Source of the DNA: a virus
DNA length: 56,471 nt
Virus record (IMG/VR): IMGVR_UViG_3300027851_000033
Coordinates: 1-56,471 of that record
Direction: 5' to 3' (one strand)
Shown here: piece after piece, positions 39,681-41,464 of the stretch
Layout: each line of letters opens with the position of its first letter
Numbering within the stretch: position 1 is the stretch's first letter
Notes under the pieces: model-generated
What the model was told of the DNA's origin: nothing
Databases searched by the model: none
Seen by the model: only the letters and a program-made list of their open reading frames with translations
Position numbers and translations under genes: made by a program

Positions 39681-40027
39681 GCCACCCCCGCACTTAATCG
39701 CACTTCAACCGCACCACCGACCCGCACCTCAGTGTGCAGGAATGGATGCAGCACAAACCGCGAATCGTCGATACCAAGCGCCATTGCAATGCCATCGCGG
39801 CCACTTTTGAAGGCGGATATAACATTGTCATCATCGCGAGGACGCCGATCTGGCGGTAAAAATGTCACCCAAAGATGCACTGCCCCATCCCAATCAACCT
39901 TGAACCTGGCTTCTTTTGCCAGCGCCCAGCAGGTGTGTTTGTAGGCTTTCGCGGCCTTTGCCTTTTTGCTCCAATGGACACGGGCATTTGGCGAGCACTC
40001 CTTTGGCGGCCAAGGAACAGTCACCAT
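39677..40027 (-). CDS. rusA: RusA-like Holliday junction resolvase
   Basis: 116 residues. The family pattern is clear: N-terminal VPWPPKECSPNARVHWSKK, LWVTFLPPDRRPRDDDNVISAFKSGRDG (the DxDN-type acidic cluster DDDN and the following Lys) and a late D (GIDDSRF). RusA is a homodimer that cuts four-way junctions, resolving recombination or replication intermediates before packaging. Fits beside the replication genes. Confidence 0.9.
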   Translation of the reverse strand: MVTVPWPPKECSPNARVHWSKKAKAAKAYKHTCWALAKEARFKVDWDGAVHLWVTFLPPDRRPRDDDNVISAFKSGRDGIAMALGIDDSRFVLHPFLHTEVRVGGAVEVRLSAGVA

Positions 40028-40137
40028 GACAAACTCACCAATACCGCCATGAATAAGCCAAGAACATAGCCTGCCCAGAACATCCCGACAGCCGAAAATT
40101 CAGTCACCATTTCTGGTTTTTGATGAATTTCAATCAT
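40021..40137 (-). CDS. Small single-pass membrane protein
   Basis: 38 residues: MIEIHQKPEMVTEF then a hydrophobic helix (MFWAGYVLGLFMAVLVSLSW). GGAGATAATA precedes the ATG. It overlaps the methyltransferase end (8 bases) and the RusA start (7 bases), so translation is coupled. Function unknown. Confidence 0.6.
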   Translation of the reverse strand: MIEIHQKPEMVTEFSAVGMFWAGYVLGLFMAVLVSLSW

Positions 40138-41068
40138 TATTATCTCCACTCAAAATCCGCCATGCTGCTGCTCGAACACGCGGAACCTGTCCGTTGCCAA
40201 TGGCTTTAATTCGGTTTGCCCGATTGGCCATCCCATTAACCACTCGACCCAATCCGGATTTAGGCGCATCGGCGGGGTCTGCTGGCCATGGCTGAATCCC
40301 TCGCGCTCTATCGTGTAGTCCAGCCGGTCGTCCGTGTCCGCTCGGTTGTGATTCGGACTCCAGCCCTTGTACGCAGTCGCAGTCGCAGTCGGATAGATGC
40401 GCTGGCTTACCGCAGTTGCAAGGCCGTCCCCGCTGTTCGCACTCACGCTCTTTCGGTTGTAGTTCCCGCAGACTGTCTGAGTTGGCCACTTCGCAGGCGT
40501 ATTTACCATCTGCACCAACGACTGACCCGTCATTTTTTCGGTAATCGTGCCGCCCCGCGTCCCGTCCGAAGCTGCGGGAGTAGCCCAATATCCAGACTCG
40601 TTCCCGCTTATGCGGGGCACCAACGTCGGACGCTCCCATAATTCCCCATCGCGCATCAAACCCGAGCGCGGCAAGGTCGGAGAGCACTCGGTCGAGTCCG
40701 CGATTAATGAGCGCTGGGCTGTTTTCAATGAATGCGTAGCGGGGTCGTACTTCCCCAATGATCCGAGCCATTTCTGACCATAACCCTGACCGCTCGCCGT
40801 CCAGTCCGGCCCCTTTACCGGCAACGCTGATGTCCTGGCACGGGAAGCCGCCAGAAACCACGTCAACAATCCCGCGCCATGGTCTTCCGTCAAAGGTACG
40901 CACATCATCCCAAACCGGGAAAGGCGGGAATGTTCCATCGGTTTGTCGGGCCAGTAAAACTGATCTGGCATAGGCATCACACTCGACTGCACACACGGTT
41001 CTGTGCCCAAGCAACATTGAGCCGAGTATTCCTCCACCAGCGCCCGCGAAAAGCTCCAACTCATTCAT
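40130..41068 (-). CDS. C5 cytosine DNA methyltransferase
   Basis: 312 residues from ATG at 41068. Motif I ELFAGAGGGILGSMLLGHRT, motif IV GGFPCQDIS with catalytic Cys, motif VI FIENSPAL, motif VIII-like VGAPHKRERVWIL and motif X AIGNGQVP are all present. The region between VIII and X is short and variable and would carry target recognition. It may protect phage DNA from restriction or alter host methylation; no partner endonuclease is seen. The whole gene is overlapped in another frame by a second conserved-looking ORF (40150-41064). Confidence 0.9.
   Translation of the reverse strand: MNELELFAGAGGGILGSMLLGHRTVCAVECDAYARSVLLARQTDGTFPPFPVWDDVRTFDGRPWRGIVDVVSGGFPCQDISVAGKGAGLDGERSGLWSEMARIIGEVRPRYAFIENSPALINRGLDRVLSDLAALGFDARWGIMGASDVGAPHKRERVWILGYSRSFGRDAGRHDYRKNDGSVVGADGKYACEVANSDSLRELQPKERECEQRGRPCNCGKPAHLSDCDCDCVQGLESESQPSGHGRPAGLHDRARGIQPWPADPADAPKSGLGRVVNGMANRANRIKAIGNGQVPRVRAAAWRILSGDNND
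40150..41064 (-). CDS. Overprinted conserved phage protein in the methyltransferase gene
   Basis: 304 residues in another frame of the same strand. Its ATG is 4 bases after that of the methyltransferase. The sequence has marks of a recurrent phage protein: MSWSFSRALVEEYSAQ at the start, HSRLSRFGMMCVPLTEDHGA, LLTWFLAASRARTSALP, KYDPATHSLKTAQRSL, WATPAASDGTRGG and the C-terminal LNPDWVEWLMGWPIGQTELK with FRVFEQQHGGF. I recall standalone homologues annotated as hypothetical or methyltransferase-associated. Both frames look functional. Alternative: a conserved shadow of C5 methyltransferase codon constraints. Confidence 0.55.
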   Translation of the reverse strand: MSWSFSRALVEEYSAQCCLGTEPCVQSSVMPMPDQFYWPDKPMEHSRLSRFGMMCVPLTEDHGAGLLTWFLAASRARTSALPVKGPDWTASGQGYGQKWLGSLGKYDPATHSLKTAQRSLIADSTECSPTLPRSGLMRDGELWERPTLVPRISGNESGYWATPAASDGTRGGTITEKMTGQSLVQMVNTPAKWPTQTVCGNYNRKSVSANSGDGLATAVSQRIYPTATATAYKGWSPNHNRADTDDRLDYTIEREGFSHGQQTPPMRLNPDWVEWLMGWPIGQTELKPLATDRFRVFEQQHGGF

Positions 41069-41322
41069 GGCCGCCAATCGCCCGACTCCCCTTTATTTCC
41101 CCGCCCCCACTGCTCAGCCGCTTCCCGCCTGAACGCATCGGCGGCAGCCCGTCCCCTGTGCTTTGCCAGTAGCTCAAGGTAAGATTGACCATTGCCTTCG
41201 CGTTGTGCTGCATGGCGGATAAACCAACGGATTTCACATCGGTGCCGGTGCTCTTCATCATTGAGCGTATCGCCAATCATTGAGCGTTGGTCGTCCTGTT
41301 GCGCTAAAAAACAGCAATCCAT
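41065..41322 (-). CDS. Small phage protein (DUF7696-like)
   Basis: 85 residues from MDCCFLAQQDDQRSMIGD, chosen for AGAGGA 8 bases upstream. The C-terminal half SYLELLAKHRGRAAADAFRR, ending EQWGRGNKGESGDWRP, is what I recall as DUF7696, often next to phage methyltransferases. The stop overlaps the methyltransferase ATG. Function unknown. Confidence 0.65.
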   Translation of the reverse strand: MDCCFLAQQDDQRSMIGDTLNDEEHRHRCEIRWFIRHAAQREGNGQSYLELLAKHRGRAAADAFRREAAEQWGRGNKGESGDWRP

Positions 41323-41464
41323 TGCATTCGTCCTCTGCCATGCGTTGCGTGTGAGTTTTTCCGCACTCGCGGCATTTGTAGCGCACGCCGACAAGGCGTT
41401 TGTCTGCCGCGTATCTGGTCAAGCCATGGCGCAGTAGATCGCCGCCGCATGCGCAGTTTTTCAT
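41258..41464 (-). CDS. Small zinc-ribbon protein
   Basis: 68 residues. MKNCACGGDLLRHGLTRY and YKCRECGKTHTQR give a CxC...CxxC zinc ribbon like those of transposase or regulator N-termini. Its 3' end overlaps the next gene by 65 bases in another frame. Start overlaps the upstream stop by 4 bases. Probably nucleic-acid binding; the role is inferred. Confidence 0.6.
   Translation of the reverse strand: MKNCACGGDLLRHGLTRYAADKRLVGVRYKCRECGKTHTQRMAEDECNGLLFFSATGRPTLNDWRYAQ

Follow-up and report, generated by a model that had tools for sequence, protein, structure and literature searches.

Can one gene of a phage encode two proteins over almost its whole length, and if so, what does the second protein do beside the first? 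This question was raised by a C5 cytosine DNA methyltransferase (MTase) gene, here called F1, and a second open frame, F2, that runs through it in the +1 frame. Both lie in the window, by which we mean the whole stretch of DNA that was analysed, which is a virus record 56,471 bases long.

Two reading frames at one locus

Inspection of the locus confirmed the coordinates in the earlier note, which had described two frames of 312 and 304 residues with starts four bases apart. Its overlap of more than 900 bases was also borne out, with F2 nested wholly within F1 across 915 bp and starting 4 nt after the F1 start. The features at the front of the locus are as follows.

41068..40130, minus strand: F1, C5 cytosine DNA methyltransferase, putative catalytic subunit, 312 amino acids
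41064..40150, minus strand: F2, proposed recognition and motif IX subunit, 304 amino acids in F1's +1 frame
41061..41068, minus strand: double start ATGAATGA, with the F1 ATG at 41068 and the F2 ATG at 41064
41065..41394, minus strand: upstream ORF in F2's frame, matching phrog_14931 (E = 3e-5)

Both starts, four bases apart, are held in the sequence ATGAATGAG. The upstream ORF ends in a TGA (41067-41065) that shares bases with the F1 start and lies directly before the F2 ATG, so it is possible that F1 and F2 are translated by coupling to this ORF. At the other end, a small ORF of 42 amino acids with a hydrophobic stretch (40021-40149 of the window, minus strand) overlaps F1's end and sits between F1 and the RusA gene; a search of the PHROG families gave no match for it. 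The ten neighbouring genes encode terminase, NinB, RusA, primosome proteins, an HNH endonuclease from a family common in phages, and unknown products; a type II restriction enzyme was not recognised among them.

Both frames are under constraint

We counted stops in the F2 frame and compared them with the number expected when each F1's own synonymous codons were reshuffled. For the window gene, 6.2 F2 stops were predicted and zero were seen, a result reached in 0 of 100 shuffles. Over 140 distinct loci, 7 F2 stops were observed vs. 574 expected under a null that ignores ancestry, most loci being about 40-50% different from the window in F1. The other four frames, used as controls, gave observed/expected stop ratios of 1.23, 1.00, 1.01, and 1.06. 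F2 was free of stops in 132 of the 140 loci, where 4.4 were expected per locus, and its N-terminal half had 1 stop vs. 313 expected. These statistics rest on the closest relatives, which form one broad subfamily picked by similarity.

Constraint was also visible at single codons. At F1 residues that hardly vary, the silent third base was fixed where F2 needs it: G136 of F1 is encoded by GGG in 139/139 loci, a codon that accounts for 19% of glycine codons in these genes, and the codon of A133 ends in C in 123/123. Per-column z-scores are inflated (ancestry is ignored, and labels are in F1 numbering), and the stop counts with their control frames constitute the safer evidence.

Searches from either side gave the same picture. 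An F2-based search of viral contigs retrieved at least 599 relatives; in the best 80 of these, F1 was present in the other frame in 80/80, with its start exactly 4 nt upstream in nearly all. A search with F1 alone, which applies no selection for F2, supplied 80 more loci, and in nearly all of them F2 could be read through almost to its end, whereas the +2 frame of the same loci contained 9-26 stops each.

The F2 start itself is kept as ATG or GTG at +4 in 133/139 relatives. The usual start is missing in six loci (L021, L108, L124, L126, L128, and L143), where F2 starts instead 35 nt upstream of the F1 reference point. The N-terminus formed there once more fits the pattern M[AST]W[TSL][IF]S[NR]A, as in MAWTISNAMMKAYE vs. 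MSWSFSRALVEEYS, over different DNA. In the window, the corresponding feature is the following.

41020..41064, minus strand: F2 N-terminal motif MSWSFSRALVEEYSA, re-formed at the new upstream start in the six loci

It is difficult to see why a protein motif should re-form on different DNA if the F2 protein did not start at that point.

These results clearly show that F1 and F2 are both under constraint, as the earlier note had proposed from the window alone, with F2 strongly depleted of stops and the control frames undepleted. Its view that such an overlap is rare was wrong for this MTase family, in which hundreds of contigs have the same layout. It had further reasoned that F2 would be doubtful if its homologues occurred only where an MTase overlaps and if stops were tolerated in close relatives. 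The first of these is what we found, since no F2 encoded without an overlapping MTase was detected in the viral and bacterial collections (105/105 further loci overlap); the second is not, as stops in relatives were not tolerated.

F1 has a catalytic core without recognition domain or motif IX

F1 matched PF00145 over residues 1-167 (E = 1.2e-32; 114 bits against a cut-off of 22) and phrog_363 over almost its full length (E = 1.2e-65). Over about 170 residues, F1 also resembled M.HhaI and M.HaeIII in both sequence and fold. The motifs are I (FAGAGGG), IV (GGFPCQDIS), VI (ENS), VIII (HKRERVW), and X (IKAIGNGQVP), among which FAGAGGG, PCQ, ENS, HxRxRxW, and GNG are conserved. An AlphaFold model gave a confident core (residues 1-170), pLDDT below 50 over residues 188-264 and 272-284, and a confidently predicted motif X helix at residues 295-307. 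Two features of the distal part were defined.

40217..40522, minus strand: F1 residues 183-284, variable, predicted disordered, without a recognition domain (AlphaFold and diversity)
40181..40213, minus strand: F1 motif X, RIKAIGNGQVP, conserved in F1, pLDDT 75-93

Compared with what PF00145 describes for C5 MTases, F1 has the catalytic core with motifs I, IV, VI, VIII, and X, and its chain includes neither a recognition domain nor motif IX. The earlier statement that F1 has all C5 MTase motifs is therefore correct for I-VIII and X, whereas F1 has no motif IX and no structured recognition domain, which by profile lie in F2.

F1 and F2 divide the labour

Diversity by codon position was F1-like over residues 1-160. 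Over residues 161-260, the F1 amino acids were nearly free (diversity about 0.80), F2 was better kept (about 0.57-0.76), and F2's third codon position was the most variable. The strongest F2 signal was at residues 261-280, with LNPxWVEWLMGWP of F2; here, as in the RLNPDWVEWLMGWPIGQT region, amino acid diversity was 0.14 in F2 vs. 0.35 in F1. Over residues 281-300 F1, with its motif X, was again better kept than F2. The predicted disorder of F1 coincides with the middle segment where F2 is better conserved. These results show that labour is divided between F1 and F2. The parts of F2 that would take over are as follows.

40279..40593, minus strand: F2 residues 158-262, WATPAASD...IYPTATATAYKG, proposed target-recognition region, F2 being the more conserved frame
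40213..40266, minus strand: F2 residues 267-284, RLNPDWVEWLMGWPIGQT, putative motif IX equivalent, in register with motif IX of in-frame MTases

We then compared F2 with known families. F2 matched phrog_1008, a family labelled DNA methyltransferase (E = 1.8e-21), and more weakly four further families, most of them of unknown function; no match was obtained in Pfam, NCBIfam, or PADLOC, or with the F2 profile among PDB sequences. By hhalign, the C-terminal half of F2 matched the recognition/IX segment of single-frame actinophage MTases with a probability of 97.4% (E = 1e-11, 81 columns including motif IX), its recognition region aligning with their LLPTPxAxD region, and motif IX alone gave 98.4% when split enzymes were included. 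The N-terminal half did not match the MTase segments tested (hhalign 0.1%). Similarity at F2 residues of about 100-180 is weak evidence, because the same stretch is echoed in the +1 frame of single-frame MTases (L274 and L276). Modelled alone with AlphaFold, F2 was poor (pLDDT 57, pTM 0.26), with the best local confidence in strands near residues 101-120 and in a helix at 270-277; a poor single-chain model is expected if F2 folds on a partner, and it proves nothing by itself. The earlier note had offered a specificity, anti-restriction, or regulatory factor as the second protein. Specificity is favoured by the match of the C-terminal half, and nothing points to a separate regulator.

Placement of motifs among relatives

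In single-frame actinophage MTases (prophiT49-1 gp22, L274, L276, and Raleigh), the order is motifs I-VIII, a variable region, a RLxAxFxEWMMGWPxGW-type motif, and then motif X with GNGVV; LLPTPxAxD-like repeats lie in the variable region of prophiT49-1 gp22, L274, and L276. In the split actinophage genes of DarthPhader, Euratis, phiBT1, and ArV1, F1 ends after motif VIII and a +1-frame gene has the region with IX and X. A tally by motif placed IX in F2 and X in F1 at 195 loci, both in F2 at 23 loci including L220 and L226, and all in a single frame at 4 loci, while about two dozen loci fit no class under the motif patterns used. Judged by these patterns, motif X moves between the polypeptides, and nearly all split loci keep IX in F2.

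Several loci deserve separate description. In L220 and L226, F1 ends past motif VIII and motif X is in F2's frame, which makes them natural intermediates between overprinted and split layouts. The record of phiBT1 (L174:732-1232) states that its DNA methylase 'may be inactive'; this gene is the F1 half, the +1-frame half being unannotated there, and a split enzyme would explain the remark. In Klebsiella phage BUCT711 (L285:1501-2177), F1 has apparently recombined and has a different C5 MTase segment from motif IV on, and F2 is open across the foreign stretch and keeps the motif IX-like NQSWLMGFPLGW. In Pseudomonas phage phPA-G (L284:1501-2229), only F2 is annotated, as a hypothetical protein, and the overlapping F1 MTase was missed; most other records looked at have only F1 annotated. 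A stop lies in F1 between motifs VIII and X in L019, L107, L178, and L225, with F2 intact, and these loci may represent pseudogenes, errors, or a third small piece. A frame change near position 3260 of L001 (L001:3200-3300) shifts both F1 and F2, either by a sequencing error or by a real mutation.

A proposed two-polypeptide enzyme and its alternatives

On the basis of these observations, we consider it likely that F1 and F2 constitute a two-polypeptide C5 MTase similar to M.EcoHK31I, with F1 as the catalytic subunit and F2 as the recognition/motif IX subunit. What the sequence itself holds is the selection on both frames, the division of labour, and the F2 profile match. From these we infer translation of F2, a complex, methylation, and a role, in the following way. 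SAM binding and catalysis (core motifs I-VIII) would reside in F1, as would motif X. F2, in the +1 frame, would be a separate translation product with a start of its own, 4 nt downstream, and would hold the target-recognition region and motif IX. The two would assemble into an active enzyme in which F2 reads the DNA site and F1 flips and methylates the cytosine. The F1 stretch over F2's recognition region would be mostly a linker that takes the frame to motif X. The N-terminal half of F2 would be mostly carried by F1 constraint, and would have to stay open because this lets F2 start at the front of the gene. The two-polypeptide model explains the openness of this half, and does not explain its further conservation.

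The likely role is protection of the phage DNA from host restriction, in view of the absence of a recognised type II restriction gene nearby and of the phage replication/packaging module around the locus, and the enzyme probably serves this purpose. Protection against restriction enzymes has been demonstrated for other phage MTases (PMC4190342), and genes 77 and 78 of phage Kampy, annotated as DNA methylases, show strong early transcription (PMC4626039). As for origin, the series of layouts would be accounted for if the frame of a single-frame ancestor had changed twice around the recognition/IX segment and F2 had then been extended upstream. We put forward more tentatively, as a possibility that we would not yet favour, that same-strand double coding from start to end is the standard encoding of catalytic and recognition subunits in a large class of phages, and that the N-terminal half of F2 is a de novo region with a function of its own, for instance in docking to F1 or in counteracting restriction by the host.

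Alternatively, F1 and F2 could be joined by a programmed +1 ribosomal frameshift after motif VIII, so that core and recognition/IX segments end up in one chain. Such frameshifting is a known means of joining segments of this kind, and prophiT49-1 gp22, L274, and L276 carry the same segments in one frame. However, a joined chain does not need an open N-terminal half of F2, yet that half is almost without stops, and F2 start codons are retained or replaced. It would also be without motif X in most loci, where X is in F1. Expression by frameshifting only is disfavoured by the open N-terminal half and the kept starts, and we regard a joined product as improbable.

F2 could also be overprinted on F1 for a separate job (anti-restriction, regulation, or other), the two having nothing in common but the DNA. 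This would be in keeping with the N-terminal half, which has a motif of its own and for which no relation to MTase segments was detected. The C-terminal half, however, matches the recognition/IX segment that is absent from F1, motif X switches between F1 and F2, and F2 was not found without an MTase in the collections searched, all of which make a separate job quite improbable. That F2 is untranslated, its apparent conservation being a by-product of F1 motifs and codon usage, would agree with the echo of residues 100-180 in single-frame MTases, but it is hardly credible and, as far as sequence allows, is ruled out by the codon reshuffling with its undepleted control frames and by F2 conservation exceeding that of F1 over residues 161-280.

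Comparison with known systems

The two-polypeptide enzyme proposed here has a close parallel. In M.EcoHK31I (YGGCCR), the gene of the small subunit, of about 176 amino acids, lies inside that of the large one in another frame. F2 differs in its length of 304 amino acids and in spanning F1 from 4 nt past its start. The motif layout is alike, with I-VIII and X on one polypeptide and IX on another at the window locus, and with I-VIII and X on the larger and only IX on the smaller polypeptide of M.EcoHK31I (PMC3404938). The recognition region of M.EcoHK31I is reported to lie in the larger and not in the smaller subunit (PMC3404938), whereas here F1 is without an ordered one and F2 is conserved there. 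Restriction-modification systems of the M.EcoHK31I type also have a cognate restriction endonuclease alongside, whereas no type II restriction enzyme was recognised among the ten neighbours here.

M.AquI has I-VIII on one polypeptide, and the distal variable region with IX and X on the smaller (PMC3404938). The window locus is similar in the separation of I-VIII from the distal variable region and IX, but its X is in F1, not with IX; L220, L226, and the split actinophage enzymes, with IX and X together, resemble the M.AquI layout. The split actinophage 'DNA methylase' pairs (phiBT1, Euratis, DarthPhader, and ArV1) share with the window an F1 with I-VIII and a +1-frame F2 with LPTPxAxD and IX; in them, however, F2 also has X and its overlap with F1 is only partial. 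The annotations list two methylases or, for phiBT1, a single gene that may be inactive. M.HhaI and M.HaeIII resemble F1 in the core of about 170 residues, but each is a single chain that includes a small domain for recognition, a part that F1 does not have.

A literature search for this full overlap in phages found no description among the papers searched, which does not show that none exists. Both readings are intact in hundreds of phages and prophages, and most gene catalogues list only one. If the proposal is right, an overlap of more than 900 bp with both frames selected would be routine in phages, many of the 'DNA cytosine methyltransferases' annotated in phages and prophages would be half enzymes with the other half unlisted or hypothetical, and F1 cloned alone would probably be inactive. 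The natural stages from single-frame through split to fully overprinted genes would offer a series for studying the origin of overlapping genes. Compared with the known two-polypeptide C5 MTases, the locus is best explained as encoding a second subunit that is overprinted from start codon to end, in a layout that is common among phages.
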